From Hydractinia symbiolongicarpus (Eukaryota > Cnidaria > Hydrozoa > Anthoathecata > Hydractiniidae), in contig NC_079876.1 of assembly GCF_029227915.1 (NCBI RefSeq), positions 12,276,001-12,340,000 of the forward strand: a stretch of DNA of 64,000 bases, in the 5' to 3' direction. Shown here one piece after another: positions 1 to 63,393 of this stretch. Position 1 is the first letter of the stretch, and every line of letters starts with the position of its first letter. The position numbers and the translations under genes are program-made. A model generated the notes under the pieces. It had not been told where the DNA came from and did not search any database. It worked only from the letters and a program-made list of their open reading frames with translations.

Positions 1-3000
1 AGGAAGGTAGATTTCTTATTCAATAATTTTTTTGATGCTAGTTATTTGCTTTGGGTTCCAGAATAACAACACAAATTGATAGAAACAATGTATTTCCTTT
101 TGCTGGAATGAGTATGTACAACACATTCAGTATATGTAGACTAGTATTTATGGAAATTTTTTGGGGAATGGGCGCTTCGTCAAATGCACAAATATATAAT
201 GCATAATCTGAGTGTCAGGATAATAATGATTACACTAGAGATGCCCTGAGCGTCTGGTGCATCAACATGTCCTGAGAAATGTGACTAATAACCCTGGCAA
301 TCTTTAAGATTAGCTCTATAGGTAGAAACCATCCCCAATGTGCCAGGCTTTACATGACATGTTCAATGACTAAGGTAAACCTAATGTATATTACCCACAA
401 TGCTAAAGAGCTGTACTTCTGTCACCACAATTAACATGAGCAAAACTTGCAGTTTAGCTCCATCTAAGTGTAGTGAGGTAACTACATATTTTATTACTGT
501 CTTGTAAACATTATTCCGCAAAGTATATTTTGTTAGCTAGACAGAGTAACCATGGGCTGTTTCCTGTTTTTTTATTTAAACTGTTGTGATATAATCTAAA
601 TTAAATTAATCATGTGTGACACGGTTTACCTGTTTTAAACGTTCAACCTGGTGTTAACAACGGGTTGTTTTGTGTGTTTTTTTTTAAGTTATGAAAAAAA
701 ATTTTAGGAAAAGGCTATTACGCCTATGTATGACACAGTTTACCTGTAGTAAATGCTCATTCCATTTTCACAATTAAGTTATTACCGTTTACCTGAAACT
801 TATTCTGCAAAATTAAAAAATATAGACTACTGTAAAGAAAGAAACTTTCGCTGGTAGAAAGTTTGTGGTTTGGAGGAACAGCGAAAATTTTGCATTTTGC
901 GGGAAAAAACTTTCGCGGATGAGCATTGTGGAAATTTTTTACAGGCAAAAAACTTTTGAGGACCGAAAATAAAGTATTAAAAACAATAGAAAACAAAGGA
1001 TATGAATGTAATTATTTTATCACAAAAAAACAAGAAATCTTCCGAAAAATTTCATCAGCTTTTTGAATGAAAATTTTTTTTCGTTGACAAAAATTACAAA
1101 AATTATAGTTTTGCTTCCTTATCACCTAAACAATACTTGTTTTTTGCTTTTACTGAGTAGTTAAATACAAATAACATAAAAAGCCTGCACTGGGAACTAA
1201 ATTTACAATTTATTTTAAATTTATTTTAAACCCTTCTATGAGGTTAGCTCTTAATCTGCTCGATTCTGCAGACACTACATTGCTAAAGTCTTCCTTGGTA
1301 TGGTAGATGATCATACTAGCAGTACCAAATATAGCTTGTTATGTAGCTATAAATAATGCTCTAAAAAATGGCACCACATCACAGTTAGTAAATTGATATC
1401 CTGATGGTGTGAGGAACACACGGAAACGTTCCTTTAACAAAGAACCCAATACCTATGACCATACTTCACTTCCGTACTTTATTTTTTTCTCTCAATAACA
1501 ATTTCATCACTCTTTCTAAAACACGATTCTTTTGTGTTGAATGTTATTTTAATCTATTTATATCTTTACAATCACATTGAGCATATTGAAATTATTTGGT
1601 ATCATTTTTAAGTGTTGTTAACATGTATTTCACAATCTAGTGCCCAGGACTAAATTGATCAATGCTGTTAAAAGACAGTAAAGAAATTAACAATTAAGTT
1701 TCAATGATATTCATTCATTCTTTCTTTTCTTTTTTATATTCACTACTTTTAAACAACGGGTGACCACAGGAAATGTGGAAACAAAATTAAAAATACAATT
1801 AATAAGACAACTAAACTTTGTCCTCTCCATTAATGCCGCTTATTTTATTATGCACACTATGATTGGTAAGATTAAAATGGATAGTATGAGAAAAAATCTT
1901 CTGTACTTCGTTGTTACAGATGATCTGTAATAATTCATTATTTTGTTTCTTTTTATGCATTTTAACTACGCAGTTTTCTATGTATATGAAAAAGATTTAA
2001 GTTAACGATAAGGGTTGTAAAGCCTTCTTAAATCAAATTTGCATGGGTGATTAATTGCACGCCTAAACAGCTCTATGCGATAGCACACTCACAAAATGGT
2101 CTGACTGGAGAGAATGTTTTGTGTGTTTTTTGTCAGACCCAGCATTCTTACCCCTTTTTCACAAAATATACCTTTACATCAGGCTTTTAAATGTTTCTTT
2201 ATAGGAATATACAGCAATTAAATCCTTTCTACAAAAACAAGGGACTAAACACATTCCTGGACAAGCTTGTTTTACTGTATCAAAGCTCATCAGCTGGGCT
2301 AGTGTTGGGTCCTAACCACGATATATAATGGATTATGGTAAGTAGTATAACTTTGTTTTCTAACCATACAGCTTTGTTTTCTAGCCATATTTTGAGGTAA
2401 TGAATTTGATTTATGTATGCATTTAATTACTTATAGTTTTAATAGCTATAAGAGCATATCTCTTATAATAATACGGAGCTTCCCTGTCTGTGTCTGTCTT
2501 TCACTTTTGCAAAGTTGATTATATTCTTCAAAATTTTCTTCAATAAAGCCTATAAAACATCACCTATAAAATTGTTATGTAATTTACCAAATCTTGACGT
2601 TAAAACAATATTGACGTCAAAGGAAAGTATATTAACAATAGTGAAGCGATTACAATGCACTTAAAAGTTTGAGGTTAAATATCCTTGATTTAGACTGTTT
2701 ATACTACGAGGTGCTTTATAAAGGCATTTTTGACTGTAGAGCCTTTTTGTTCATTTTTATTTTGCTGCAACATCTGTATTTTTTGAACTTTGCAAGTTAA
2801 AAGTCAACATAAAAAAATTTAATAGACTGCAGCCTTTCATCAGAAATAGAAAAATTTTTTTTGATTAAAAGGATTAAAAAAAATCTATTTACAGTATATA
2901 CAAAATTATGCTATTATAGAAATTAATTTTGAAATTGAAAGCTTCAATGAAAATTTTTTTTTGTGAGTTTAGAATTCTTCTCTAGAAAACTTCCTAAAGT

Positions 3001-9126: not shown

Positions 9127-10107
9127 AACGATTGCTACTTGCATACAAGCTCTCTGTGGAATTTAAAGAAAAGAGAGAAGATGGGGAATTATTTTGTCAG
9201 TGGGTGCTTAATGATGATAATAAACCTCTTGAAATATTTGCTAAAACCTCAAGAACTGAAGATCCAGTAATAGAATGTGTATGTGAATGGTTTTTAAAAA
9301 AAAAGAAAAATATTTCTATTGCCGAAATTATTAAAGAAGTCAACAAATGTCTGAAAAAATGTGGTAGAGGCCTGGAGATAACCGAAGATGACTTGAAACA
9401 CAGTTTTCAAGATACTGAAGGTATAATATACCTAAAATATAAAATAACTTTTACTTTATTACATAATATTGTTATGCGGTTTAGTACACATTACCCACAG
9501 ATTATGTCTGCTACCACTAACTATGGGAACTGTTTTTGGATATGGTAACCTCCTGAGATACATAATAAGTATATTTGAAATATCTCCTTTGCGGTTGATA
9601 GTAGCGCCATCAAATATAACATACGTCCTCTGTGTATTATGTAGTTGTTGAAAATTATATTAAAAACTTGTGAGATAATTGTAACAATTTACGTTGATAA
9701 TGTCTTGTAGTAACAAGACGAAATATCCGTTAAAAATTAAAATGCTGGATGATTTTTGAAATTACAGATCCCGTTTTATCATAAGGTGCTTTGACTAGAT
9801 CGCCCTCTTGACTGATATTGTATATATGTTTTAGTTAGACATGATCATCCTTCAATTTCATTTGAGATGGAAGACAAAATTTATCGATACCTATTAGAAA
9901 AAATCTCACCATGGGACATTCGTTACTTTGCGCATTTTCTAATCCCTTACAATGAAGTAAGCAAAATATTTGCAGACAACGTCGGAAATATTGAAAGGGT
10001 GATAACGTTAGTACTTGAAAGATGCAAAAAAAAATCTACTTCATGGCATCAACTAAAATCTGTTTTAAATTTTTTAAAAATGGACGATCTCGTAAATGAC
10101 ATCCAAG
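9127..10107 (+). CDS. Two exons encoding tandem death-fold-like domains (N-terminus of the NTPase gene)
   Basis: Exon 9127-9420 follows a TTTTTAG acceptor and ends at a GTATAA donor. Exon 9835-10107 follows a TTTTAG acceptor and ends at GTAAGA. Both introns leave one base of a codon, and the joined codon reads valine. The first segment has the amphipathic pattern of the later helices of a death domain (VIECVCEWFLKKKKNISIAE, then a Gly-Arg near LKKCGRGLEI). The second ends in a Trp-Leu-Leu-Leu pattern (STSWHQLKSVLNFLKMDDLV) resembling the last helices of death or DED folds. These assignments rest on pattern alone; the segments could be other six-helix bundles. No catalytic residues are expected. 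The position ahead of a P-loop NTPase is where NLR-like proteins carry their effector domain. Confidence 0.6.
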
Positions 10108-13100
10108 GTAAGAAAATTACACTTTCAAAATGTTTGCTTTGTTTTCACACAATTTTGATATTATCACACTTAGTTCCATATTTATTTCGTTGTAAATAAA
10201 ATAAAATCATGCATTATTTAACACTTTTAAAAGTGCTTGACACAAAAAAAATATATTATGGATAATTTAGTGGTAAAGAATTTATTGTCTGTTGATTTAA
10301 AAATGTTAAATACTAAGGCTAAATATGAACTTTAGAAAAATGTGTCTTTTTAGCCTAATAGGGTTAAAAGCCAAAACAACTTTGTTAATTGTAAACAATA
10401 ATTTTAACAAAATGACCAATGATTGTTTCTGTTTCTTTTACCAATTATTACTCAACTTTTGACTATGCTAAGAGCATAAATTTTGGTGAATTGGTGGAAA
10501 TAATCACAGTAAACAAAACATTTTAATCTAGTTGTATTTAATTCTGCACATAGCAAAAAAATCAATTTTGTCAGGAAATTAATTTCCTGAGTGATGAAAG
10601 TAGTCTTATTTGTTGTATTTTTTTTATAAATATGCCAATCCGGTCAAATTTTCTTTCCCTTATTTTCAATAAAACTGAACCATCACAAAGTATTTGAGAA
10701 TGAAGGCGGTGATACACGATTCAATTAATCGAACTCGATTTGTCGAATGCGACAAATTGGATTGTGTATCATGTAAAAATCGTATGCTTTTGGCATGTTC
10801 AGACTTGTCAAATTCGATTTTTAAACAGTCAGAGCGGTTTATTCTTTTCGATTAATCGAAGGGTTTTTAACCAATCAGAATGCTTAAAATTTGTCATCAA
10901 ATGTCATTCACAAAAATGTGAGTTTCTATATTATAAAAAGCGCTCTAGAGCGTATTAGCAGAAGACATCCAAAGAAAATTAAAATAATCTTCTTGCTCTA
11001 ACCAAAATTCGTTTAGAAACATATCGCATACTCCTAAACAAGATCTTTTCTGCAGCCATTCTTTCGTCCACATACAAGGTTTCTGACATTTTCTTAAATA
11101 AATAAATAATAAAAGCAGTGAGTTCAACTTTATCTTCGCTCTCTGAAGACATTTTAATCAAAAGAAAAATATCAAAAGTTTGTTCTCGTGTATCACCTGT
11201 CAAGTTTTGATTTTATTTTAATGCCCAATATAATTTTAACAAACCAAATTCGATTAATTTCACCGTGTATCACCGCCTTAAATTAAGTAAAACGCGAATT
11301 ACTTCAATTAATTCAATTCATGCTAAAGATTCAATTTTACGGATCTCTGAATGTATGTTTCAAAATTGATCTTTTTTTTTCTAGGTGGCATTCAAGATGA
11401 ATTTGGTAAGTCCAATGCATTAAAGAGTGTTTAAGTGGCATTGTTAAGTAAACTATTCATGCCTTTATCATCTGCCAAAACTTTTCTTTGCCTAAATCAC
11501 ATCAAACATGCTTTCATCACAAAACTTTAGGAAAATTCACAAGGTCATAATAACAATTGAAAAGTTTATTAAATTTATTGAAAGTTTAAATTCATATCAG
11601 AAAACCGTTTTTACAGATTGTAAGGGTTTTAAAGAAATTTTGCTGTTTAGTCATCTTTTTAATAACTCGATTTAGCATGTTCTTATTCTTAACACTTGTG
11701 CGTATTCCCACAATATACTCTTTTCATAAGGATAGCTTTTCCTGAATATGTTGAAATTAGTGTTATGGCCGTCTTTCAAATTTTAATAGATGAAATGCAT
11801 TTTGCAATCTCCTGTAGGTCTTTTTTTGTCTTTACACAACCACAAATGTTGAAAGAAGTAGTGTTAAAAAAAATGAGACTTTTCTTTTATCAAATTAATA
11901 CATACACATTGTATGTATTGTACTTTGAAGAACTTTTTCTTTTTTAATAATTGCTTTGTAATAAAAAGTTCAGATTTTTTATTTCAAATAAATACTAACT
12001 TGACTGTTTAGCTTTCCAACGGTGTAAAAAACAAAGTTTAGCATATATCCTTAAGCAAAAGGGAATCACTCAATTTCTTACACAAAAACTTGGTTTGTAA
12101 TATTTTGCACTGATATGTCAACCATTTCACCACTACTTTTCCCTATTATATATCATTAATTTGTTTTTAGCCAACAACACAACTTCTCCAAGGTATGTGA
12201 TTTCTTATTTACTTTTATTTTTTATGTTTTTTTGTTTGTTTTTTTTGCTTTGTTGAACTTGTGGTTCGGGTTTTATTTCCGGATATTTTTTATAACAATG
12301 TTTTAAATATTAGTAACTTGAAAAAATAAAACTACCAATTTGTTCTATAGCACTCGAAGCTGCAACTACCATTTTTTAAGAGCTTTTGATTGTTCTGAAT
12401 AGTCAATAACTGTGCTTTTCCCCAAAAGCATTCTTTCCACATACACATCTGTCCTATGAGAAGCAATAGAACATAGCTTGCATTAGTCAAAAGCAAAACT
12501 TGAAATTATAGGCCTTTAAAAACTCCTAAAAAATTAAACACAAAACTGAGAATGTATATTCCTTATTTATTAAGTCAGAAGTTACGTACGTAACAATCAG
12601 GAAAAAGTCGAATAAGCTGATATGATTGTTTATCATTTCTGATTTTGCTAAGAATTTGAAAAAACTGTCAGAGAAAGAATCAGAGCAATGTTTGTGTCTT
12701 TTTAGAAAATTATCATAATAATCTTACTGCAAAAATTAAAGTTAACTCCAAGAAATCAAAATAGTTAGAGTAAACCCGAGGTGTAAAATGATATTGGACT
12801 TATATTATAGAGCCTAAAATGTTGGTTATCAAGGCTCTTTTCGTTTTCAAGATATTCACAAGAATTTCATATTTAATTATGTTGCTTAAATTATGATGTC
12901 ATATTTAAGCAATAGCAAATTTTGACATTTTCTGTCGTCTGTATTTTTAGACCTGTTAAGGAATGTGCATTCAAACTAAATCAATGTATAGAATTGAATA
13001 CCATAAATTTTTTTGCCAAAATTACACTTGTTTGCTCGTCCCAGGCCCAAGCTCACACAGAAAATTTTATTGCAAACCAAGGTGTCTATCCCGTGTCATT

Positions 13101-16100
13101 GGTAAAAATTACGCTAGGTCTCAAATGACTTCTCTGTGGTCAGAATACTGACGGTGCTTTCTGATTGGTTAATTCTATATTCACATCAATATCATGAAAT
13201 CTCTTGTTTTAAGTGTAAATGGCCTCATTGACCCAAACAAATAAGAATAATTCTTCTTTCATTTAGAGGGTAAGATGTGACCATGCCAACTTTTTCCTTA
13301 ATAGTTGATTGACCATGCCAACTTTGCTTAATAGTTGATTGTAATTCGGGATTTGCTATGAGGTGGATTTGAATTTATTGATTTGCTATGACATTTAAGC
13401 TTTCTTTTGGGAGATACTGAATTTGATATCCTCAAAGAATACTCTGTTAACTAGGCTAATACCTTCCCTGATAAATCAAACTGCCGAAGAATAAAGATCA
13501 ATTCGAATTTCAAAAACGATTTTTTCAAGAACTGGTCAACAGTTACCGGGGTCTTTCGAACATACTATTCATAGGATTGCTCAAATTGAATGAAACTTGG
13601 CACACTTATAGTACGTCATAAAAGGAACAAAATGGCGGCAATAAATTTTTGCTTCCGTCAGCACATTTCTGTGACGTCATCAGAAGCTTGAACATTGTTA
13701 AAAATGCCACTATCTGCTTAAAATATAATTACTTTTGTTCTAAAGCGAATTTTTACATTCTGTTTGAAGTTTCTGAAAGCTAAATAAAATTTTTTTAACA
13801 TATCTTCCGGTTTTACATGGATCGGATAAAAAATTGCCCGAAAATCCGGTTTTTTCTATTCCGTCCGGAATCCGTTACTGGAGTTACTGTATGTTTTTAT
13901 GTTACCTCATATTTTAGTTATATGTTGATCAAGAATTGCAATGGAAACCTTGTTGTGCAAATTGAAGACAACTCATTCTGGTCTATTCAAAGTGTGAAAA
14001 GTGTGAATGTTGAAATTGACTACATTGTTGAAAGGAAAGAAGGAAAACTTATGCTGCTCATTCATAGCCAAACTCCAGACTCTACCAACTTATCAATCAC
14101 GTTGGTTGACAATGAAAGAAAAATTCAATTGATTACAATTCAAGGTCTGTTGTGTTAATGATATATTATTTAAATATATTCAATATATCAATTAAAAGTA
14201 CAAATTTATGTTGTAGTGTCGAATTATGTTCTTAAGATTTGGAAAGGAATCACTATAGCATAATTCACCATTTAATATAGAAATAAAAAAATAACATTTT
14301 TGTTTAACAATTATGTAAAATGTATGTCTCTGTCTAATGAAACACGAAAACAGTTACTTTCATTTTGTTTATTGTGCTTCCAGCGTGTAATCCAAAAATT
14401 AAAAATACGGGCTGGTAAATCCTAAATAAGAATTCATCATGGTAGTTTGAGGGATTTAAGGAAAACGTATCCCTTTACAACTTGGATGAAATGGGTTTAT
14501 AAGTCCCATACTCTCTGGGACATAATTGTAGAGTATATGAATTAAATATTCTAGCCGTCTTGATAACTTTTTTCAATAATAACAGTAAAGAAAGCTTTTC
14601 CTTCTTATTGGATCATAACGTGCTACTTTTTAAACATTGCATGCTAATTTAAATTTATCCTTCGAATTCTTAGCAATTCTGCAAAAGATACGTAAAGAAT
14701 ACTATATTAAGTTTGTGACAATTTCTTTTTTTTTGATAGGTAACAATCTGGCACACCAATGTACAACAACTAACCATTTGATTATTATTACTCACAACAG
14801 TTGTAAAATATGCAATGATATTGAGTCTATTGTAAACACGCCAACAGAAGAAACAGTTGTTGAATTTTTTTGTGGGGGGAATCTACAAAGAATGACAGAA
14901 GCAGACTATGAAAAAATTGAAAAAGGCTATATTTATGAATATTTTACACGTGATGAGAAATCTATGGAAGAAGCACTCCAATTTCCACCTCCAATGCTAG
15001 ATCTAAAGTGCTCTGTGTTTGCCCAAAGAATTAAAGCTGTTATGGTTAAGTCAAAGCATCGGTTATTTACTGTATTAACACATTACGATGCCAAGAAGCA
15101 CATGGAATTTTTAAAACTTCACAAAGTATTTCCTGTGAAGTCATTTTCTGATGAAAACAGAATCTTATTTGTGTTCCTTAACACCATTATAAACATGAGG
15201 TACACAGAAACAACCAATGCAATGATTATACAGAAGGAAATTTTAGCAGGCGAGGAGAACTTAAGAGAGCTCTGTATTGTCTATAAAAAATATTTAAAAA
15301 ACAGTAACTTGAGAATAATTAATGTTGTGGCTGCACCTAATTTCGAAGACAAGCAGGACACTGCAATTTGTGTTGATTGCAAAATAATCTTTAGGAACAC
15401 TTGGTCTGAAGATAAAGCTATTATGAAGTTCTTTTTAAACATATTACAGGGAGAAAGCAATATATGTAACAAGAAAGAGCAATATATCAACATAGTCAGC
15501 AAAATCTTTTGCTTTATGGCTACTCGAACAGCACTCTATTCAGTCCCTTCACTCAGTGATAACACCCACGAAAAGATAACTTCACTGCTACTAACTTGTC
15601 AACAACAGCGTATTTTGTATGACAAGTCGAAAAAAAAAATTATAACTGGTTCCTTGGGTAGTGGTAAAACTGTATTAGCCTTGTCACATTTAGAACGTGC
15701 TTATCAAATATCTGAAACGAATTCTGTTATATACTACGTTATATGGGATGATAAAACGCTACTGAAACAAGATGTTGCCAGTCATGCTAATAAATTCAAC
15801 AACAAAGCCAATGTTACAGTTCTCGTTAGAGAAGTTGTGGAACTAGCTAAGGACTTAAAGATGACAAACGTACCAGCACCATCGCTGTTGTTGATATCGT
15901 TGGTTGAAAAACATACTAACGAAAACTTACATGTGATAATTGACGAATTAAATGGTGAAGTATTGGATAAGGAAGAATCGTCATCGCTGAAACACTGCCT
16001 GGAGACTGAAAGTAGGTTGCAAGATTCTCTTGTAATTATCTTTCCTCAATCTGTTGAGAAACATAGAACGTTTATTTCAGACGAATCTATCACTAATCAT

Positions 16101-19100
16101 TACAAATATAATTATAAGGACACAGGAATGAAATTATTTAAACTAACCAGAGGAATGAGAGCATCAAGAGCCATTTTTAACTTTTTAAAAGCCTTCGAGC
16201 AAAAAGCAGCCAAGGAAAGGACGGTCATTAAACTTCCTGTTAGACAATCTCATCTAAAAAATGATGCAGTAATATCACCAGGTAATATTGATATCAGGAA
16301 TAATTCAAGAGAACAAGAACAGCCTATAGTTGAAGAACAATTACCGCAAGTTGTTCCCCATACTACAGCCTCTGCAGAAGAGAAAGAAGAAGAAAGTTTT
16401 AAAATACCTGTTGATATTGATGTCATTGCAGCCTCTATGAATGATACAGAGCTTTCAGAACATTGTAGAACGGAAATCGAGCTAACATTTAACTCAGCAG
16501 ATAATATAGGTCATAATATAAAAGGTACAAAGCCATTACTAATACATCCAGTAATGCAACAAATGACGGAAGAAACAGTCATTCTATTGTTAGCTTTTGC
16601 TTTAAAAGATATTGGTTTATTTGATAAAAACAGGAGCCTGTTAATTTACAACACCTTGCATCAAATGACAATACTTTACAGATTGCTAAAACTGTTAGAA
16701 ATAGATTTCTTTCATTACGATGACTCCACTAAATGGAAAATCCGGAAAATTCAGACAGGTGAAATAGTTCAAGATCTTTCCAACTATACCAACTATGCCA
16801 TGCTTACTACAACACAAGGTGCTCGTGGTATTGAAGCAGCTGAATGTATTTGCATAATCGACAAAGACGACTGTAAGTTAAAACATTTAACTATAGAAGG
16901 AATGTCAAGAGCAACACAAAGCCTTATCCTTTTGTCGATGTCAAACATTAACAAATCAAACATGCTGAAGTCATCAACTGGTAAGATTGTCAGTGAACTT
17001 ATGTCTGAATATCTAATAGAATGTTGCTTAGAACACTCAGATGATAACGAGACAGAAATACCGTTCACAAAGACTTTATATGACAATAAAAGAACTTACA
17101 GCATTCACACTCAATCATGGGAATATGAAGAAATGATGGAAAAACTTAATCATGTTGAATGTCCACGCACGTCCGAAATTAAAAATGCAAACGAACTAAT
17201 AGTTAAAAAGTAAGAGGATTAGGTTTATGAGTAGAGCGTAAAATAATTCTGTTTCAATAGGGAAATAGCAAAGCATGTTTTCTTGTTATAATCAGTTACC
17301 CTATCGCTATTAAACAATGTATAGTTCTTTTATAATTTTTATTTCAGCCTTCATCCCCCTGAAATATCCGATAACACAATTTGCTCGTATGTGTCAGACA
17401 CAACATGTGAATTAAGTTGGGAAAATAAAGGCTACAGATACACAATTAAGAAGCAGGACAACGAAAATCTAGATTGGAAAATTGTAGCTAGTAACATTAC
17501 TTCTAACAAATTCGTACTGAATGATATGGTGATTGGTGAACTGTACAAGTTTTGTGTCGTTGCTAGTAATCAAGTTGGTAAATCTGATGACAATATCGTG
17601 CCTTATCTTCACAAGTAAGACAAAATAATAATTTTTCTTTCATGTTAGTAGAATCTAAATCATAAATTTTAAATCTAACGTTACTTTCGCAAGCTGCTTA
17701 ACCCTTTTAAGGGGGATTTTCACGAAGCGAATTGAGCGGCGAATTTGACAGCGAATTGTATCTGAGCATGCGCAGTTTTGTTTATTTTGATTTTGCATCC
17801 CCTTTAGTCCTAGACAGCTGTGCATTTTTGGAAGAAAAAGCATTACACAAGTTTTGCTGCGTCTAGTCACTAGATTTGGAGATATAGCCTTTCCTAAATT
17901 GGTAACCAAGACCAACCACCCTGTGAGTGGCTGCGAATGAAATATTAATTATATGACCGAAGATAATTTATAACTTGAAACAGTTCAGTTTCCAACCCAA
18001 ATAGGTTATCGTGTAGTCAAATTTTAGCGAATATGAAATTTTAAAACATTTTAAAATTTAATGCAAAACCTCATCTGAACCCTCGAAAAGCATTTGATTT
18101 AAATATTACAGCTGTTGTACTTTTTATTTAGATTGTCAAGCACGTCGGATATTATGGTTGAAGGTATGTTTATTTTATTAAACTGTTAAGCACGTAGCTT
18201 CAATGATAAATACTTAGCATGTATAGAGAATAAACATATGGAATGACTGTATTTACAAATTATTTTTTTCGGGGTTTGCTAGAGCTAGTACGCGCTACGC
18301 AATATACCCTGATTGGGGCATATAATACAATTCTTTCAGAATTGTATTATATGCCCGACGGTGTTAGGTACGAACAAAGTGATGTTCGTTCTGATATTTC
18401 TTCTGGCGAAAAATATAAAGTGTACAAAATAATACACAAAAAAGAATATACATCATCGAAAAAGAATTATTCGATTTTTATTTCTTTTTTTTCTTTGCAC
18501 TTTTTTTCGTAGATACTAAAAGTAGGAACCAGCAGTAACCAACAGTAACCAGCAGTATTTCGAAGTAACCACTGGAGAACCACCAGTATTATGAAATAAC
18601 CACAAGAGAACCAGCTGGTTTTTTAAGTAACCACAAGAGAACCAGCAGTTATTAATAATTTACTCCAGATAAGGCAGCAACAGCGGCGCAAAGGTGTTGT
18701 GATTTTTATGCACAACACTTCATGACCTTAAAACTACCAAATATGATAAATAAAAGGACACGTAGTTCCCAGGCCTTTTTTCTAATACTTTATGCTCCTG
18801 CTAACCAGCTACTTTTATGTTGTTTACACAAGGTCCAATAAATGGATTCCGCGAAGATTAATTTACGAAAACATGAATAAAACTCGCGGAATTCGCGATA
18901 ATTAACCAACTAAAGTTATTTATTTATTTATTTCGCCTAAAGGCAGTAATCCATTACAAGAATTACAGAACGAAAATGGTGTTTTCAGGATTAAGGTTCA
19001 TTCTTTGAGATAAAATGTAACATGTTTCAAGAAAAAAACGTTCATTTCGAAGGCATAATTTTTTTTTTACTTGAACAGAAACCATGTGAGAAAAACAAAC

Positions 19101-22100
19101 TTATATTTTCTACCGGATGCCACGATATTTCTCCACAACATTTATTAATTCATTCAAACTTTATGAAAAAATGTCTCGTTTTGGACCATCCTCCGTATAG
19201 TGTTGTTTTTCGTTATCTTTGGTTTACAATTCAGATATTAGTTCGTTATTTAAAATATTAATTTTGTTTTTGTTAATTCTCGCGTGTGGTTTTAAAAGCC
19301 TTCTGGTGTCTCAACTGTTGCATAAAGCCCAAGTCACACCAGACATAAAAATTTCAGAAAAATGGGTCATGAATTGTTGTGTACATTATAAAATGTTTCA
19401 CATCGAAGCTGTAGTTGCGTTTATTTCGTTTTATCTATTTAACTGGTCTTTCTCTTGTTGTCACTTAAAAAAATGCTGGTTCTCCGTTAGTTACTTCAAA
19501 ATACAGATGGTTCTCTGGTGGTTACTTCAAAGTACTGCTGGTTACTGCTGGTTCCTACTTTTAGTAAAAGCGACTTTTTTTATACTCGTTTATAGTAGCC
19601 TAGTTAACTAAGCTTTTTTCTTCGAGTTGATAAAATGAGTTTCTCTCAAACTAAAGCTTAGACGCGAACGAATTACTCAGTGGAAACTCCGAGTTTAAGT
19701 CGAACAATGTGACTAATCGCTTTAGAGGACATTTTAATTTATCTGTGAGTTATTTACCAAGTTTGGCCATATCTTACTTTGGTAAAAACTTTGTAGAACA
19801 CTAATGTTTATTAGGGTGAGTGAAACCACTCGCTGAAATTTTCGGGATGAAAAGGGCTTTCCCCGATAATAATCACGTGAGCAGAGAACAATAGAATTAG
19901 CCAATCAAAAAGCGCGGCCAGATTTTGGCCGCAGAAAAATCGTTTGAGACCCAGCGTAATTTTTCCCACCTTAACTACTCCGATTTCCCGGTGGTAAGAA
20001 AAATTACGCTGGGTCTCCTGGCTAGTTTATAGGGACACCAGTTGATAAGCGCACGCTCAGATAAGCGCATCAAAATCTTGCTATGCGCTTGATTTCGGCA
20101 TTTTACTGTAAATTGAATACAAAATTGTTCCGTCTATTCGGGCCTTTAAAGTTTAAAAATAATCACTTCCAGCCTTAACCGAAATTCTTATAAAAAGGAT
20201 CTCAAACGATTTTTCTGCGGCCAAAATCTGGCCGCGCTTTTTGATTGGCTAATTCTATTGTTCTTTGTTCACGTGTTCCAGGTTGGGGAAAGCCCTTTTC
20301 ATCCGAATATTCCAGCGATGGCCAATTGGCTTTTTAATTTTCACGACAAAATGAATTAGGCGCCAAATTCGCAAACTAGCAGCGAAACCTTTAGCCGCGA
20401 AAAAGTAGGAACTGTTTCTACTTTTCAGCGAAGCGAATATTTCTATGCAAAATCAAAAAAACAAACTGCGCATTCTCAGATACAATAAGAAGTTACATTT
20501 GGGTCTCAAAGATTTGTAAGAATAATTTTAGTTCAAACATGACAAAAAGGAACACCCAAATTTCCAACTACTTGTGAATAGTTTATAGAGAAAAACAAAC
20601 CAAAACCAAAACTAATTTATTTTTAAAAAATTTAAGCTTGTAAAAAAAGTAAACGTTTTTTAACCGATCGCGTGTCAGAGAAACATCTTTGAAATGTTGG
20701 TGCAGACGAAATCGAATATATTGAGTACAATTTGTTCTATTTTTATCACTATATCATACTCAACTAAAACGAATATGTTTCATTCAGCAAATAATGTTGA
20801 TAAAATGTGTGAGGTGAGAGAAAATTTAATTTTGATAAAAGCAGCAGCTAGTTTTTATTATGCATTTTTTTTTTTCATGAGAAACCCGTTTACAATTAAC
20901 AGAGTATTTACTAAGAGCTGTGTACCTAAGTCTCGTGTTCTTTAGAACTTGTTCTTATAAAAAACCGATCGCGTGTCAGAGAAACATGAAATGTTCGTGC
21001 AGACGAAATCGAATATATTGAGTACAATTTGTTCTATTTTTATCACTATATCATACTCAACGAAAACGAATATGTTTCATTCAAGAAATAATGTTGATAG
21101 GTCGTGTGAGGTGAGAGAAAATTTAATTTTGATAAAAGCAGTAGCTAGTTTTTATTATACATTATTTTTATTCATGAGAAGTCTGTTCAATTTATTTTTA
21201 CAATTTTTACTGAAAAAACGAAGAAACTCTTTTTGCGTGCTTTAGATTATTTTCTACCTTTATCCTGCACTTTTCTCCATACAATCTGAAGAAAGCTTTT
21301 TTTGTTCATTTGTTAGGTAAACGCAAGTTGAGTGCAAAATAAAAAGTAGAAGTTCAGTATTTATATTTAGTGAAGTTTTTTCTTTGTTCGTAAGAAACTA
21401 AATAAAGTCATGGAATAAGCATACTAGCCAGCCTCGGTTTTAGGGATTTATCGCCGTCTTCCCACATGCCATATAGATAAAAAATCCCTGGAACCGAGAG
21501 TGCTAGACTAGGCAATATTGATATTTGGTAAAGTTTCTCTTTGTTCGTAAGAAGCCAAATAGAGTCATGAAATAAGCATACTAGCCACCCTCGTTATCAG
21601 AGATTTTTGCCTTTTTGCTATAAAACATCCCTGGGGACGAGAGTGCTAGACTAGGCAGTATTAATATTTGGTAAATTTTTCCCCTTGTTTTGAAAACGGC
21701 TAAATAAGTCATGAAATAAATAGCTAGCCATCCTATTCTCCAGGGATCTTTACCTGTTCGTTCTTTTCCCGCATAAGAAATGGATAAAAAAAACCCTGGG
21801 GACGAAAGTGTTAGACTAGGTTGGTTTATAAAAACGCATTATGTTATCGTAATAATTGTAGGAATAGCTATATTTACTTCCGAGATTTTTATTAAAAATG
21901 TCATGTGAAATTATTTTAACAAGCGAAAAATTTTAGAGTCTCGACTTTAACTGAAACATTTCCGTGGTTCATACAAGTAGAATAATTTTCTCCTGATGCA
22001 AATTATCCTTTACATGATGACGTCAACATATTAATATTAACTTGAATAAAAATAAATTATTACTATATTTTTTGTTTCTGTGTTTTCACAATTACTTTTT

Positions 22101-23508
22101 TATGTTTAATACATTATAAAATGTTTTACAATAAAAAAAAGTATTTAATGATGTTATAAGTTTTTCGTTATCATGTTTCATTAATTTATAAATTTATAAT
22201 TTTTATTCATTTATTATTTTATATTTAGATATCGAGGAAATTATTGAATCTAACGATATCGAGAAACTGAAAAAATTACTATCCATTCATCCAAACATCG
22301 TTCACATGAGAGATGAACGTGAAAACACACCATTGATGTGGACAGTACTTCACACCGACAATACATCAATGGTGGAAATACTCATCTCATATGGGAGTGA
22401 TGTTTGGGCGGAAGATAGCTGGAAACAAAACAGTTATCATTTTGCTGCATCAGAAGATCGTCACACAATATTAGATATGTTATGTCGACATGATGTAACA
22501 AACATCAACCGTGGAGATGTTGACAACTACACACCATTACATGATGCTGCATTGCGTGGTCACATCTCATGTGTTGATGTTTTGTTACGTTATGAAAATA
22601 TTGATGTGACGATCAAAGATATATTTGGAAACACAGCTTATGATTGGGCTGGAGGATGGAAGAATGAACAAAACCGGAAAATAATAAGACGAAAAATAAA
22701 AGAATACGAAGTAAGTTATTAAGTTGATTTAATAAATTAGAAAGAAGAATAAATGTGTAATTAGTTTTAATTTGAAAATAAAAAGGAATATTTATTTTTA
22801 AAAAAGGTTTTAGGTTAAGAATGTTATTTTTTATATTCCGTGCGGAGTTGTTATATTAAAATTTTGAATAATAATAAACAAAAATATATAAAGACAATAA
22901 TATAATGAATAAATAAATTTAATAAATGTTATATACGGGGTATTATAATTTTAAAGTAATTTAAGAGTTGTATTTTTGAAGCAAGTGAAAAATTAAAATA
23001 TTACGAAGAAAGTTTTAAAAGTTTTATAAAAATTAATTACGAAAAAAATATTTAGTTTGGGTTGATGATAATAAACGAAATGATATAAGACCAAATATGT
23101 TTAGAATATATTTTAATTCGTATGTAAAGTGATTGTTGAAAAATAAAGTAATTCAATATTAATGTATTTTTTTGCCAGCGATAAATGAAATTTGTAAAGT
23201 TTTTTTTTTTTTCAGAGTATTAGTTAATAATTCTTTTTTCTTCATATTATTATAAGAAATATAATAAACAATTTATAATTAGTTGCTAATAATTGTTTTA
23301 TTGTTAGGTTTGAAAAGAGGATAAAAAATACAATTTCGTTTCCAGACCGTTTTATACTTTTGTGTAAAAACTAGAATTAATTGTAAAAATGAAATAATAC
23401 AAATTTCGAGTGCGTTGCATGATGGGAATTAAAAAAACATTTTTAGCGTAAATTTTTCGATCTTGCGACTAATAAAAATAATTATTTTTTTAGGCTAGAA
23501 AGAAGTAA
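9127..23508 (+). CDS. Death-fold / SF1 (Schlafen-g3-like) NTPase / FN3 / ankyrin protein, 5' incomplete
   Basis: I reconstruct one gene as join(9127..9420, 9835..10107, 11385..11405, 12171..12192, 13918..14144, 14740..17209, 17348..17614, 18132..18163, 22229..22710, 23494..23508). Every junction has AG/GT borders and the codon phases match at all nine joins, giving at least 1366 residues. Domain order: two death-fold-like helical segments (about 1-95 and 105-188), two microexons, a beta-rich segment (about 204-278), a P-loop NTPase (about 560-1040), an FN3 domain (about 1103-1190) and four to five ankyrin repeats (about 1203-1350). The first exon here begins inside a codon and has no in-frame ATG, so at least one upstream exon is missing. 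The last exon adds only four residues and a stop; if its donor is not used, translation ends three codons past the ankyrin exon. Known: death folds nucleate signalling complexes, and P-loop NTPases act as switches in NLR-like proteins. Inferred: a cytosolic innate-immunity or cell-death sensor. No exact homologue is known to me; the lone-gene model is strong on phase but lacks transcript support. Confidence 0.8.
10703..11279 (-). mobile_element. PIF/Harbinger-derived short transposon in the NTPase-gene intron
   Basis: Perfect 16-bp inverted termini AAGGCGGTGATACACG (10703) and CGTGTATCACCGCCTT (to 11279) extend imperfectly to about 40 bp. The minus strand keeps the N-terminal part of a Harbinger-like transposase: WTKEWLQKRSCLGVCDMFLN then YFNFLWMSS (10945-11087), and an overlapping frame 10979-11203. 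The catalytic core is deleted. The target duplication is unclear (TTA on the right, no match on the left). Confidence 0.6.
11385..12192 (+). CDS. Two consecutive microexons (21 and 22 nt) of the NTPase gene
   Basis: Exon 11385-11405 (21 nt, residues GGIQDEF across the junction) lies between TTTTTTTCTAG and GTAAGT. Exon 12171-12192 (22 nt, ANNTTSP plus a split serine) lies between TTTTTAG and GTATGT. They preserve the reading frame from the second death-fold exon to the exon at 13918 and supply a short polar linker. An alternative acceptor at 12950 also fits the phase, but that path reads into a dispersed repeat and a stop at 13126, so I prefer 13918. Such short exons are easily missed by gene predictors. 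Confidence 0.6.
13918..14144 (+). CDS. Beta-rich exon of unknown fold between death-folds and NTPase
   Basis: About 75 residues begin YMLIKNCNGNLVVQIEDNSF and show alternating hydrophobic strands with short polar turns (VEIDYIVERKEGKLMLLIHS, then NLSITLVDNERKIQLITI). I recognise no family. The exon has an ATTTTAG acceptor and a rather weak donor (GTCTGT), yet its phase joins both neighbours exactly, completing a serine codon upstream and a glycine codon downstream. A long open frame extends upstream to 13817, but that part lies in intronic repeat sequence. The segment may be a small beta-sandwich or a structural lead-in to the NTPase. Confidence 0.55.
14740..17209 (+). CDS. P-loop NTPase exon, SF1 helicase / Schlafen group 3-like (DUF2075-like)
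   Basis: This is the largest exon, 2470 nt. A glutamine-rich lead (LLLTCQQQRIL, Q-motif-like) precedes Walker A GSLGSGKT at assembled residues 582-589. Walker B VIIDELNGE has D680 and E681. LTRGMRAS lies near 747, TTTQGARGIE at 968-977 resembles SF1 motif V, and MSRATQSLIL at about 1000-1009 resembles SF1 motif VI, with Arg1002 as the likely arginine finger. This order is typical of UvrD-like SF1 NTPases and of the helicase part of group 3 Schlafens. About 90 residues between the LTRGMR motif and the C-terminal lobe (roughly 775-865) are acidic and low in complexity. Some 300 residues before Walker A have no recognised domain. A frame upstream to 14637 is intronic; the true border is the TTTTGATAG acceptor at 14739. 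ATPase competence looks intact; helicase activity is not shown. Confidence 0.8.
17348..17614 (+). CDS. Fibronectin type III domain exon
   Basis: The exon lies between TTTCAG and GTAAGA and joins the NTPase exon by completing an asparagine codon. Its 88 codons begin LHPPEISDNTICSYVSDTTC, then show the FN3 hallmarks: a B-strand tryptophan (ELSWEN), a C-strand tyrosine (YRYTIKKQ), a tryptophan near WKIVAS, and the conserved leucine-tyrosine pattern GELYKFCVVASNQVGKSDD at strands F-G. One domain occupies exactly one exon. There is no signal peptide or membrane segment, so this is probably an intracellular FN3. FN3 followed directly by ankyrin repeats is the arrangement of FANK1. Confidence 0.75.
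18132..23508 (+). CDS. C-terminal linker, ankyrin-repeat exon and last exon
   Basis: A 32-nt exon (18132-18163) encodes a serine-rich linker and splices over 4 kb of repeats to 22229-22710. That exon carries ankyrin repeats: a degenerate first unit (IEEIIESNDIEKLKKLLSIH), then units starting ENTPLMWTVLHTDNTSMVEI, QNSYHFAASEDRHTILDMLC and NYTPLHDAALRGHISCVDVL, and a partial last unit (GNTAYDWA). The TPLH and LL motifs and the 33-residue spacing are clear. The exon ends with a basic helix. A strong GTAAGT at 22711 leads to a short last exon at 23494 (ARKK then TAA). The long intron carries a foldback element and several MITEs, which would split this gene in automated annotation. Confidence 0.7.
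18316..18356. repeat. Perfect 19-bp hairpin with 3-nt loop
   Basis: GGGCATATAATACAATTCT (18316-18334) and its exact reverse complement (18338-18356) are separated by TTC. It sits in the intron just after the 32-nt linker exon. Length and perfection resemble the hairpins at 7307-7345 and 50153-50193. Confidence 0.75.
18516..19564. mobile_element. Foldback-type transposon with subrepeated termini and TA target duplication
   Basis: Perfect 25-bp inverted ends start CTAAAAGTAGGAACCAGCAG and lie at 18516-18540 and 19540-19564. Each is followed inwards by irregular copies of AACCAGCAGTAACC / GAGAACCA units (to about 18650 on the left, from about 19470 on the right). TA on both flanks fits a Tc1/mariner-type target duplication. 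The interior has no transposase; open frames at 19022-19261 and 19219-19611 show no recognisable protein. Located in the intron ahead of the ankyrin exon. Confidence 0.6.
19831..20317. mobile_element. MITE with long inverted repeats and a nested inner hairpin
   Basis: The left end (CGCTGAAATTTTCGGGATGA...) and the inverted right end share about 115 bp, including GAACAATAGAATTAGCCAAT and GCGCGGCCAGATTTTGGCCG. A second hairpin (GACCCAGCGTAATTTTTC ... GAAAAATTACGCTGGGTC, about 19948-20018) is nested next to the left arm. Related fragments occur at 13085-13130 and 17700-17790, so this is a dispersed family. No coding capacity. Confidence 0.6.
20662..21190. repeat. Direct duplication of about 225 bp, period about 301 bp
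   Basis: Two copies beginning AACCGATCGCGTGTCAGAGA lie at 20662 and 20963 and match nearly base for base to about 20885 and 21185, with scattered substitutions and one short deletion. Both keep an open frame on the plus strand, but the protein is low in complexity and not recognisable. It is a fairly recent tandem duplication inside the intron. Confidence 0.7.
21371..21820. repeat. Three tandem copies of a unit of about 150 bp containing the CTCG...CCCTGG foldback
   Basis: Each unit has CTTTGTTCGTAAGAA-like sequence, then GTCATG(G/A)AATAAGCATACTAGCC, then a foldback with CCTCG...CCCTGGGGACGAGAGTGCTAGACTAGG. The three copies diverge moderately. The unit links the foldback family found elsewhere in the window to a fixed flank, showing it was amplified here with its insertion site. 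Confidence 0.65.
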
Positions 23509-29952: not shown

Positions 29953-32535
29953 CTATGTCCACTGCTGAAAAAGTTTTTTATTCTCTTCCGATTCAAATTT
30001 GGGTTTGAAAATGATTTTACAAATTTTTGAAAATCCTTCTGAAACACTTGGTTCTTCATATTTGTTTTTGTAAACATTATACCCGACATCAGGAATTCGC
30101 CGCGTCTTTCCAGCAGTCTCTATTTGTCTGTACATATTCAGATGTTTAGCAAGATCAAGAGGCGTCTGAAAATGAAAACACCTTGCAGGTACGCCAGCTT
30201 TTTTTGCAACTTCTATATAGAGCTTTCGTGTTTCTTTTGAAGGATTTGTGTTATCTACCACAACACTCTTACCGTTCATAATGTTTTCCATTGCAACTTT
30301 TAGGCATTTCTCTTGTGTCTTCAATCTATCCCTATTCACACTAACATAATTTTTAGGTTGTAAGTAATTTTTATGAAAAGTTGACTTTCCAGATGCTGGG
30401 ACGCCAACAAATACAATCAATTCTGTATCCTAAAAATAAGAATATACTTAAAGTTCAAGTGTTGTAAAATTTACTCACTTTTTAAGGAATTACTGAATTC
30501 TCTAAAATCATATTTATACACATAACAAAGTTACCTTAATAAAATAAGCGCCAACGTATCAACTTAAATCTTAAGTAGCACCATGAAAAATTGGTTTATG
30601 TGCTTTTATGAAGTTGTCACTACCAGTATGCAGGTATGTGATTTTATGAAGTTGTCACTGGCAGTATGTAGTTATGTGATTTTATGAAGTTGTCACTGGC
30701 AGTATGTAGTTATGTGATTTTATGAAGCTGTCACTGGCAGTATGTAGTTATGTGATTTTATGAAGTTGTCACTACCAGTATGCAGGTATGTGATTTTATG
30801 AAGTTGTTACTAGCAGTATGTAGTTGTGTGATTTTATGAAGTTATCACTACCAGTATGCAGGTATGTGATTTTATGAAGTTGTCACTAGCAGTATATCGT
30901 TATGTGCTTTTATGAAGTTGTCACTGGCAGTATGTTTTTATGTGATTTTATGAAGTTGTCACTACCAGTATATAGTTATGTGATTTTATGAAATTGTCAC
31001 TACCAGTATGCAGGTATGTAATTTTATGAAAAATTACTTTAAGAGTGATTTAAATAAATCACAAGTAATTAAACAAAATATATATAAATTTTAGTTACCA
31101 TACCTTTGATGCGATATTTTCATAACTGTCATCAATATTTGCGCTGGTCAAAACCTTCGTTGGATCAATTCCATACCAGTCAAAGTTTTTATACGGTTTT
31201 GCTCCATCAAAAAATTCTTCCGGTGTATAAAACTTCAGTCCAACATTAACAGCGAATTTACGATCACTACATGAGAAATCTTTTTTTCGTCCTAAACAAA
31301 AAAAGCTGTTAAAAATTATCTCTGTTTGTGTTATGCAAGTTTCAGGTCTGATACAACGTGTTCAAAATTTGTTACAAATTTTGCTACAATTACACTGACA
31401 CTTAACAAAAGAAATATGTTTAACGGTAGTGACAGTCCTTTTGTTCACCCTCAAACCCATCTTGTAAGAATGGAATATGTTAAAATAAAGTCATTGACTT
31501 ACAACTTCAGTTATAAGATGATGTTTCAAGACTAATCTTATAGTACTACTTCTTGACTATCTTTTTTAGGTTTTCAAAAGTAAATACTTAAAAAAGGGGC
31601 GATCATTTTGATTAAATAATAAAAACAAAACTTCCACTTCAATAAAGGTAATAAACATGGTCTGGTGACATACTTCTAGAGACAAAGTGAAGAAGTTATT
31701 ACATTAATGTGTCTGATGTAACACAGTGAAGTTACACACTTTTTTATAACTAACCTGCGCTATAATAGGAATAGACAAAAAATGTGTCTGTTAAATTTAT
31801 CTGAATGTTATACGTCCTTGATTTAAATCCTAAAAACGTCCTTGATTTTAATCCTAAAAACTCAATTTTTACAAATTCTTTTAATTTTCCCATTTGGAGC
31901 CTTACTTTCTCATTTATATTGGCATATTTATCAGCGTGTTTACTTAAGACAAGCAAAAATAAAAACTCACCTACAGCCCAGTTTTTCGGTCTTCCAGCTG
32001 CATCACCAACATAGTAAGACGAATTAATATCAACTTCCAAACAACCATTACATTTTTTGATCATAAAATCCCACATTGAGGTGTATGGCTTACGATATAT
32101 ATTTTCACCTGTTGCAACAAACACCTGGAATGCGAAGCCTAATTTAGACATGATGGCAGATATTTTAGTCTGTATTTCATTTGACTTGACTTTCTTTTTT
32201 TCTAATCCGGCTTGATTTGTAAATACAACTATTTTGTATCCATCTTCGCGTAACGATTTTAGCTTAGGTATGACTTTTCCACTTAAAAACTTCCAATCAG
32301 CAGGCCCCGTGGGAAATGCTTTCCCACTTTGAGTAGCAATTAAAGTATAGTCTAAATCGAATCCAGCTATTTTAGCTGAAGGCGGTATATCTTCCCCGTC
32401 TAAATACATCAAAGGCTTCAAACCTTTCGCTTCTTCACCATGGTACTTCCAATTAACTTTAAATTTCCCTTCCTCCTTCTTTGCAACTTTTGATGGCTTC
32501 TCTCCTGCACCACTTTTGCATAAAGATCTTTTCAT
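29953..32535 (-). CDS. PNKP: Bifunctional polynucleotide phosphatase/kinase (PNKP), without FHA domain
   Basis: complement(join(29953..30429, 31104..31291, 31971..32535)) gives 409 residues with all phases matching. PNKP repairs DNA strand-break ends by removing 3'-phosphates and phosphorylating 5'-hydroxyls, in the nucleus. The phosphatase half carries the HAD motif FDLDYTLI (Asp60 and Asp62), FTNQAGL and YYVGDAAGRP. The kinase half has the P-loop GVPASGKST (about 260-268), VNRDRL and VDNTNPS. The chosen start is ATG at 32533-32535; a longer frame to 32592 crosses a TTTTACAG acceptor-like site at about 32579, so those codons are probably not translated. The N-terminus is a short lysine-rich tail instead of the FHA domain of vertebrate PNKP, as in the shorter nematode enzymes. 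Intron 2 contains a 38-bp minisatellite. The gene lies head-to-tail behind RUVBL1, 786 bp from its stop. Confidence 0.92.
30597..31030. repeat. 38-bp minisatellite in PNKP intron, about 11 copies
   Basis: Unit TATGTGATTTTATGAAGTTG plus TCACTACCAGTATGCAGG, with alternate ends TCACTGGCAGTATGTAGT. The two end types are interspersed. It lies in the intron between PNKP exons 31104-31291 and 29953-30429. The spacing has no unique spacers, so this is not a CRISPR array. Confidence 0.85.
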
Positions 32536-33321
32536 AGTGTAGTAATGTAGTTGTGCGGTTGATATAACAAATTTGTTTCTGTAAAATATCATGCAATTTT
32601 AACTAAAATATTGCAAAACATAATTTGACTAACATATCTTAAGAGAAATTTTACCAGAAAGAAAATTTGGCACATTTAGCACTCATAAAAATCTGCACAA
32701 TTAAATTCCTTCACAAAATTTAATCTCCCTGTCCCTAAATTTAATATTTTTCGTCATCCTTTTAATTAACTTCCTGTTGATTTCTTTTTCGAAGGTAAGT
32801 CCTGAAGCTTGCCAAAAAAATAAATTGAGTAAATTGTCAGAAATTTTGTCAAAAATATGTGAATTCTTTAAATTTTTACGAAATTAACTTCACTGGTGAC
32901 AGAAAGTGGTTGATTGTACAGGATTAAATCATTTTTTATAAAACATACAATTACAGACAAGACTATCAAGTATCTAAAATTTCCCTTTGCAGTTAAAACC
33001 CTAATTCTAAGATTTTTTTCTTGTTGTTAAAATTTTGATAACAAAGTAATTATAACTTCATTTTTTTGGAGACAACTTGTGTAAGTAGTAAAATAAGATA
33101 TAAAATCCACATTTAAAAGGAAATAATAAAAATATCCACTTTGCATTACTATGCTATATATATTTAATCTAGCATGATCATGTTTACAAAAACAAACATC
33201 TTTTTAACAATATTTTAAGGGAACAAGATATTGACTTAATGTTTCGTATAGAGAACACGGTTATTTGCTACACTTCATACATTGCCACAGGTGCACAGGT
33301 TAAGTTTATTGTTTATAACTT

Positions 33322-44113
<10,792 letters not shown>

Positions 44114-61881: not shown

Positions 61882-63393
61882 TTATGTGCGATAAACTTCG
61901 GTGTTTCCGTTTATCGTGCTGCCGTTATTCGGGAGTTCCTGAAGCACGAATACTTCCTCGCTACTTTCGACACCATTTTGAATGAGCTCATCTTTCGCAC
62001 TTCTGTCGCTGCTTCTACTTTTGTTTATATTCATTTTAAGTAACGGTTGTTTCAAGTTGTCTTGTTTATGAATCATTGACGTCGATTGAAAGACTTCATC
62101 GTCATCGTCGCTCAGTTGCTTTGGAAACGTCGGTGAATGATTTTTTATCGAAAATTGCTCCTCGCCATAATAAGTACCTGCGGTTACATTTGTCGCCGAT
62201 GAATCTGCAAGTTTGACGTCGACTTGTCTTTTATTATTGTGATTTAAATCTTCTGGATTACTTCTCTTTCGTGACGTCAGCAGATCTCGATTTGACGCGC
62301 TGCTACTGCGCGACCATCTTTTACTGCGGACTGAAAACGAAGTTGTTAAAGTGTTGCGAAATGTTTCCCATCGGTAATTTCGAACTCGTCGAATACAACA
62401 CGAACAAAATAGTTTCAACGTCGTACGTCGAAACGACGTGTGTAACTTGCTGTATATGATTGGATTAGCACAGTTGTTTGCCATTTGTATCGTCTGCAGA
62501 ATTGTGAAAATGCGAATGGTGAGACGAAAACTCATTTTGTGGTCACCGTACATGTACAAGAGATAAAAGACATTGATTGGAATAACACAAACGTAAAACA
62601 CAATAATTATCGTTATTAATAAATTCGCAGCTTTTCGATTGCGTTTTATACGCAGTCGCATTGCTTGTTGGTGGTGCACGAACAACTCGTTTCTTGCAGA
62701 CTTTCCCAACTCTATTATTATCAATGGGTAAATAATGGAAATCAAGACAATCGGAAGAAAGAGCTGGGCAAATAGGGCAATAAAAATGTGTTTTTCTCTT
62801 GTTTCTGCGCTACCAAAATCTCGACAGACGTGAATGTCGATTGGTTTGTCGTGATGAAGTTGAATTCTGTCGCCGACAAAATAACTGAACCCAACACCAC
62901 TGCTAATCAACCACGTAACAACGATTACAGTTACTATCGTGCAAAGTTCGGGCCGTTTACGTAGTGGCCATCTTACTATTACAAAGCGATCAATCGATAT
63001 AACAACTAACGTTAAAGCAGACACGGTAATACTCGTCATCGATAAAAACGATACAATTTTGCAACCAGTGTCCCCTATCGCGTGAAAACTATGTTCCATA
63101 TTCTCTAGCAACATTTTTCCTGGCACAATAATCGATCCAATCAAGTCTGAACAGGCTAAACTCACCATCAGCATTTCACACGTTTTTAGTTTGGACCATC
63201 GAGAACCAAAGACAAGCAAGACAAGAATATTACCCAGAATTCCAACAATAAAAATTAACGTGCAAAAGATAACTGTAAAGTACTTTAATAAAGTGTCGCT
63301 CTCCGGCGGAGAAGGTGTTGTCTCGTTCAAAGTAGTCGTGGTTGTTTCCACCGATGACATTGAATAGTTGATCAGTTGTGTTGCAAAAGCCAT
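61882..63393 (-). CDS. Class A (rhodopsin-like) G-protein-coupled receptor, single exon
   Basis: One open frame of 503 residues with seven hydrophobic segments from about residue 37 to 317. Family residues visible: GN55 in TM1, LACSD83 in TM2, Cys111 and Cys190 for the extracellular disulphide, D135-R136-F137 at the end of TM3 (DRY variant), W161 in TM4, FYVCVIP in TM6 with Cys-Val-Ile-Pro in place of CWxP, and NPIIY (310-314) in TM7. The short N-terminus is Thr/Ser-rich with N-glycosylation sites at N9 and N23. After TM7 come a Cys pair suited to palmitoylation and about 180 residues of Ser/Arg-rich cytoplasmic tail. This shape fits peptide receptors (galanin/NPFF/QRFP-like), but the ligand cannot be named. 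The gene is tail-to-tail with ORP9. Confidence 0.9.
   Translation of the reverse strand: MAFATQLINYSMSSVETTTTTLNETTPSPPESDTLLKYFTVIFCTLIFIVGILGNILVLLVFGSRWSKLKTCEMLMVSLACSDLIGSIIVPGKMLLENMEHSFHAIGDTGCKIVSFLSMTSITVSALTLVVISIDRFVIVRWPLRKRPELCTIVTVIVVTWLISSGVGFSYFVGDRIQLHHDKPIDIHVCRDFGSAETREKHIFIALFAQLFLPIVLISIIYPLIIIELGKSARNELFVHHQQAMRLRIKRNRKAANLLITIIIVFYVCVIPINVFYLLYMYGDHKMSFRLTIRIFTILQTIQMANNCANPIIYSKLHTSFRRTTLKLFCSCCIRRVRNYRWETFRNTLTTSFSVRSKRWSRSSSASNRDLLTSRKRSNPEDLNHNNKRQVDVKLADSSATNVTAGTYYGEEQFSIKNHSPTFPKQLSDDDDEVFQSTSMIHKQDNLKQPLLKMNINKSRSSDRSAKDELIQNGVESSEEVFVLQELPNNGSTINGNTEVYRT

Follow-up and report, generated by a model that had tools for sequence, protein, structure and literature searches.

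A Hydractinia gene family with a diversifying ankyrin face, an SF1 helicase-type ATPase and Death or HEPN effectors: a candidate intracellular receptor class with NLR-like logic

An animal that lacks adaptive immunity would be expected to rely on diversified receptors, but few kinds of these are known beyond the Ig-like, LRR and lectin types. The fungal NLRs with ankyrin repeats of Podospora anserina combine an effector, a nucleotide switch and ankyrin repeats, with effectors used combinatorially, and positive selection acts on the concave binding face of their repeats (PMC4986451). Cnidarian HEPN-NACHT and Death-NACHT proteins, which form large expansions, carry DZIP3-like HEPN or Death effectors, and the fusions listed for DZIP3-HEPN are with ankyrin, CARD, NACHT, DEATH and LRR, the SF1 helicase not being in this list (PMC8260672, PMC3710099). 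In bacteria, HEPN and an SF-I helicase are found in one chain and are read as defence (PMC3710099), and in metazoans lineage-specific TRADD-N/Death-like expansions, some of them cnidarian, join death-fold adaptors to RNA helicases (Mov10, DDX60, RLR) or to ankyrin repeats (PMC8195603). Zebrafish has nearly 400 NLR proteins of the NACHT-LRR type, in a paper where 'gene conversion' occurs 22 times (PMC4852459), and the man-made libraries of DARPins place variable positions on the concave surface of a fixed ankyrin scaffold (PMC8229355). We analysed a gene within 64,000 nucleotides of Hydractinia symbiolongicarpus (the window, C2:12276001-12340000, C2 being contig NC_079876.1, in a genome of 480.9 Mb). 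The gene is real and corresponds to NCBI LOC130629453, whose protein model is 99% identical over 85% of the query. Its domain order is exon 1, a Death-domain fold (exon 2), linker exons, an SF1 helicase-type ATPase, FN3 and ankyrin repeats.

The tripartite effector-switch-repeat layout of NLR and STAND receptors is found in the window gene. The switch of the fungal ankyrin NLRs is NACHT/NB-ARC and that of the cnidarian proteins is NACHT, whereas the window family has an SF1 helicase-type ATPase; its fold matches SF1 helicases, and 'NLR-like' here refers to the way in which the protein would work. The fungal proteins also have highly alike internal repeats and repeat-number polymorphism, while the window family has about four repeats in one exon, varying between loci. 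The bacterial fusions are of restriction type, and neither FN3 nor a hypervariable ankyrin face is mentioned in the passages on them (PMC3710099). The TRADD-N expansions are TRADD-N based, unlike the window family, where no TRADD-N domain was found and the helicase is of the UvrD/Schlafen type. Each principle thus has a precedent, in the selection on the fungal concave face, the bacterial HEPN/SF-I proteins and the cnidarian fusions of death adaptors to helicases; it is the combination of parts and the animal setting that differ here. No description of the family was found in the open-licence PubMed Central (PMC) literature, a scope outside which preprints lie. The best reading is a putative receptor class with NLR logic and a different switch, in which the motor is conserved, the effector swappable and the sensor diversifying. 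We consider it fairly probable that the window gene is a member of a germline-encoded intracellular recognition family, with an ankyrin sensor, an SF1 switch and a Death or HEPN output. The original prediction had proposed NLR-like logic with an SF1 ATPase in place of NACHT/NB-ARC and ankyrin repeats as scaffold; the SF1 fold and the tripartite layout agree with it, but the scaffold role does not hold.

The ankyrin repeats are encoded by exon 9 (22229..22710, + strand; Pfam Ank_2 E 5.6e-23). Across 19 such exons, 24 of the 163 codons had an entropy of 1.6 or more. The 20 codons that correspond to DARPin positions 2, 3, 5, 13 and 14 in each of the four repeats accounted for 18 of these 24 (p 6e-17), and another three lay at position 10. 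The choice of these positions and their mapping onto the exon are our own assumption; the DARPin papers give the concave surface only. The comparison was extended to 39 of the 43 close ankyrin exons of the genome (close meaning at least 78%), one of which, L058, has no adjoining ATPase exon. Here 16 of the 21 codons with an entropy of 2 or more belonged to the DARPin-position set (p 1.6e-14); 37 distinct surfaces were found, residue 108 took 13 amino acids, and 81 of the 163 codon columns were invariant. Nucleotide diversity at codon positions 1, 2 and 3 was 0.51, 0.51 and 0.23 in the hypervariable codons and 0.06, 0.02 and 0.03 elsewhere. The variable codons showed several bases at positions 1 and 2 (C being rare at position 2) and often a fixed position 3; a one-base mutation pattern was not seen in them by eye, no formal test being made.

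The ratio of nonsynonymous to synonymous differences per site (pN/pS) in the ankyrin exon was 4.86 at the DARPin-position set (pN 0.47), 2.53 at position 10, 1.18 in the other repeat codons and 1.83 outside the repeats. Across 11 matched loci of the HEPN group, the same ratio was 0.38 for the ATPase and 1.24 for FN3, against the 4.86 of the ankyrin surface codons, and sites with an entropy of 1.6 or more numbered 0 of 849, 0 of 88 and 22 of 163, respectively. The ATPase is under purifying selection. A codon model of 38 exons (L057, identical to L056, was omitted) gave a nonsynonymous-to-synonymous rate ratio (omega) of 45 at the DARPin-position set, with twice the log-likelihood difference (2dlnL) at 164 versus omega 1, although this value is likely an overestimate, inflated by saturation and by recombination among the copies, which a single tree does not accommodate; the rest of the exon gave 1.65 (2dlnL 14). 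The hypervariable binding positions, the 37 surfaces and an omega far above 1 argue that the ankyrin exon is a diversifying sensor with extreme selection on its face, which the original prediction had overlooked.

Matches to the ATPase exon were found in at least 55 places in the genome, at least 39 of them on C2; we merged 66 matches into these 55 places, and the copy numbers are lower bounds. At least 50 of the 55 have an ankyrin exon downstream within 20 kb, and 42 of the 43 close ankyrin exons sit behind an ATPase exon. Since 39 of the 55 copies share one contig and some blocks look duplicated, an artefact of assembly or alignment, or neutral drift in dead copies, could be suspected as the source of the variation. 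We regard this as very improbable: internal stops are absent from 52 of the 55 ATPase places and from every one of the 43 close ankyrin exons, change is abundant at the surface codons and scarce in flanks and at synonymous sites, and the same pattern appears in NCBI protein models and on other contigs. At least 48 other ankyrin matches, at 39-48% identity, are scattered along C1 and are perhaps a second expanded ankyrin family.

Over 4.3 kb, the loci L025 and L028 share 97.8% identity. They agree at 450 of 450 bases ahead of the ankyrin exon, at 90.9% in the exon itself and at 98.4% in the sequence following it; identity fell to 0.87 in a single 250-base slice inside the exon and was at least 0.93 in every other slice. 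The two exons differ at 44 bases, 28 of them at the DARPin-position set or position 10, with one synonymous codon change. The window ankyrin exon, compared with those of seven loci whose ATPases are only 37-38% identical to that of the window gene, gave a pS of 0.011 outside the surface. Between L022, of the HEPN group, and four members of the 37-38% group, likeness comprised the ankyrin exon, about 45-140 bases on each side and an intron element, with a 106-base piece in two. Synonymous sites of the exon thus hardly differ even between distant loci. The most likely explanation is that gene conversion or exon transfer has carried the exon from locus to locus, and its face has diversified. Selection plus exchange, without a special mutation mechanism, may suffice for the ankyrin diversity. 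Whole-repeat shuffling between loci was rejected as its main source: of the 741 pairs that the 39 exons form, just 2 have a single repeat haplotype in common, and another 2 have all four in common. The intron element (20657..21189, + strand) lies roughly 1 kb ahead of exon 9 and may not belong to the system. It consists of a unit of about 300 bases, tandemly repeated in the same orientation and 87-97% alike in the window and L022-L029, even between ATPase groups. All 9 of the 9 long loci that carry a hypervariable exon had matches to it (L024 over only 74-77 bases), and L030-L035 had none.

On C2, family members form two blocks, roughly colinear, at 5.7-7.0 Mb and 10.8-12.2 Mb, which may be the two haplotypes retained in the assembly or a segmental duplication. 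Of five ATPase-side pairs compared, three are 99.4-99.7% identical but differ in their ankyrin surfaces; the other two are 95.0 and 97.8% identical. These pairs bear on allorecognition, in which the receptors would control whether colonies tolerate contact or fuse, polymorphic self or non-self proteins being recognised by the ankyrin face. Hydractinia is a colonial animal whose colonies fuse, and the three pairs would amount to allelic variation if the blocks are haplotypes. Nevertheless we find this explanation unlikely, as the known allorecognition genes of Hydractinia are membrane Ig-like proteins, a segmental duplication could account for the blocks, two of the pairs are more divergent, and the ankyrin exons of L056 and L057 are identical. 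A more speculative reading, possible but rather doubtful, is a germline library of intracellular binders that would be nature's equivalent of a DARPin library. An exon whose ankyrin scaffold is constant and whose face varies would be moved between loci with different ATPase groups and effectors. Its diversity would be allelic in the population and serve self/non-self or pathogen recognition, perhaps helped by a locus-bound mechanism of recombination or diversification tied to the upstream intron element.

Exon 6 (14740..17209, + strand) encodes an N-terminal region of about 285 amino acids, modelled at low confidence, followed by the ATPase core. The original prediction of a P-loop SF1 NTPase with Walker A, Walker B and later motifs was supported in three ways, by profile, predicted fold and motif conservation. 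Residues G303, G306, G308, K309, D401, E402, R695, G696, E698 and R723 are kept in 50 of 50 aligned relatives. Walker A and B are thus present together with C-terminal RecA motifs (R-G-x-E and the R of motif VI), placing the ATPase in the SF1 superfamily. In structure re-alignment of the model the fold was closest to UvrD and Schlafen 11/14, and the Group 3 Schlafens (SLFN11, SLFN14) were the best match by sequence, using a profile built from 50 members, and tied for the best by structure. Searches of NCBIfam, PADLOC and PDB (phmmer) with the ATPase of the window by itself brought no useful match. A rival reading is that of Schlafen-like antiviral factors, in which the SF1 module itself would bind nucleic acid, either RNA or DNA, while a tether to viral proteins would be provided by the ankyrin face. 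The exon scored 14.2 bits with PF09848 (Schlafen-type helicase), below the cut-off of 24, all its Pfam matches being sub-cut-off, and 7 of 50 relatives matched at E <= 0.01 (best 0.00042), so that by this profile the gene would not count as a Group 3 Schlafen. Unlike those proteins, the family has FN3 and ankyrin repeats, and no Pfam match to a Schlafen core was found in the window gene or the scanned relatives, the N-terminal part of exon 6 being modelled at low confidence. We hold the Schlafen-like reading to be possible but doubtful. In the low-confidence model, helices and strands of exon 6 residues ~90-213 follow one another in an order reminiscent of a PD-(D/E)XK-like fold, though no catalytic residues are obvious; this is a lead only. 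C210 and C213 are invariant in an alignment of 19 rows and almost invariant in one of 50.

The model of exon 2 (9835..10107, + strand) is a six-helix bundle; the first 25 hits of the structure search were Death domains, CARDs appearing from the 26th, and Foldseek gave a probability of 1.00, but no E-value under 0.001. Profile and sequence searches gave no Pfam or PDB match for exon 2, and structure was needed to support exon 2 as a predicted Death fold. Exon 1 (9127..9420, + strand), of about 97 amino acids and conserved in Death-type members, had no significant relative in profile searches; of the two death-fold segments originally predicted, structure therefore speaks for the one in exon 2 and the profiles lend nothing to the other. 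HEPN was not found in the window gene. Among paralogs of HEPN type, two proteins matched PF18738 (E 1.5e-19 and 2.8e-18), a third (P0013) had no match at a threshold of 0.1, and the RNxxxH motif of HEPN was present in all 12 HEPN-type proteins, which had been picked without using the motif. Between HEPN and exon 5, P0004, P0007 and P0013 have long runs of 'IKQNQDDIKANKDNIQQNEDG'-type repeats of very different lengths, perhaps a coiled coil.

Upstream of the ATPase places, on the same strand and within 12 kb, we found a HEPN exon in at least 35 and a Death exon in at least 4, with neither in 16 among the matches listed. The HEPN pairing used 43 of 81 matches (within 12 kb), and the ankyrin and Death pairing 61 of 125 ankyrin and all 22 Death matches (same strand, within 20 kb). 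The four Death-exon loci are the window, C2:12469011, C3:15245322 and C15:11341482. In one locus read on both flanks (L021, L003, L022), HEPN, exon 5, ATPase, FN3 and ankyrin exons stood in that order. The N-terminal effector is swapped among family members.

From these parts, the ankyrin face would bind variable protein ligands, as its diversification suggests, and binding would be relayed via FN3 to the ATP-dependent SF1 helicase-type motor acting as switch. The switch might then release or cluster the N-terminal effector, a Death domain here and a HEPN RNase-type domain in most paralogs, and the domains suggest cell death or RNA cleavage as output. Several points weigh against this reading. 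The Death-domain Z of exon 2, 12.7, is just below 13, the tool's warning level for helical bundles; exon 1 and the ~285 residues ahead of the ATPase core have no assigned fold; and 14 of the 16 loci without a detected effector form one group, that of 37-38% ATPase identity. Some locus pairs have a near-identical or the same exon (L024 and L027 the same surface, L056 and L057 the same exon), the inflation of omega counts here also, and the surface variation could serve endogenous partners. If the recognition-family reading is right, the family follows NLR-like logic with a motor of SF1 helicase type at its core, and its variable recognition residues are readable straight from the sequence. Ligand search, population polymorphism and the origin of new specificities would become directly testable in a laboratory cnidarian.

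As originally predicted, splice joining of the window sequence places exons 1-10 in one shared reading frame with AG/GT borders throughout. All exons are on the + strand. Exon 3 (11385..11405; GIQDEF), exon 4 (12171..12192; ANNTTSP) and exon 8 (18132..18163) are linker mini-exons present in NCBI isoform X2 (P0001). Exon 5 (13918..14144) encodes about 75 amino acids and is conserved in paralogs, at 38-45% in the loci where it was found (tblastn). Exon 7 (17348..17614) is the FN3 domain (Pfam fn3 E 2.7e-6), which, like the ankyrin repeats, had been correctly foreseen. Exon 10 (23494..23508) encodes ARKK and the stop, in agreement with the KEYEARKK end of P0001. Isoform X2 is the window chain minus exon 2, plus an upstream start fitting an exon at 2328. 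The gene thus probably starts at a 10-base exon 0 (2328..2337; ATG GAT TAT G), which encodes MDY and the first base of E, contains the only ATGGATTATGGT match in the window and is followed by the donor GTAAGT; P0001 begins MDYE. Of the earlier exon set, the ten exons and the end at 23508 stand, but the start probably lies at this upstream exon and the end of exon 9 was corrected to 22710. The original prediction had also named an independent FN3/ankyrin transcript as the alternative to a single chain. Two contigs, P0005 (4575 bases, 1475 amino acids, HEPN type) and P0019 (4336 bases, 1395 amino acids, Death type), hold effector, ATPase, FN3-like and ankyrin parts in a single open frame; because they lack introns we read them as assembled transcripts, and in this reading they speak against a split into an ATPase and an FN3/ankyrin transcript.

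Elsewhere in the window, open frames at 29953-34611 and 61882-63402 (both - strand) look like PNKP, a RuvB-like helicase and a G-protein-coupled receptor (GPCR), ordinary neighbours. An open frame of 1002 amino acids at 46062-49070 (+ strand) is presumably a reverse transcriptase of the long interspersed nuclear element (LINE) type.

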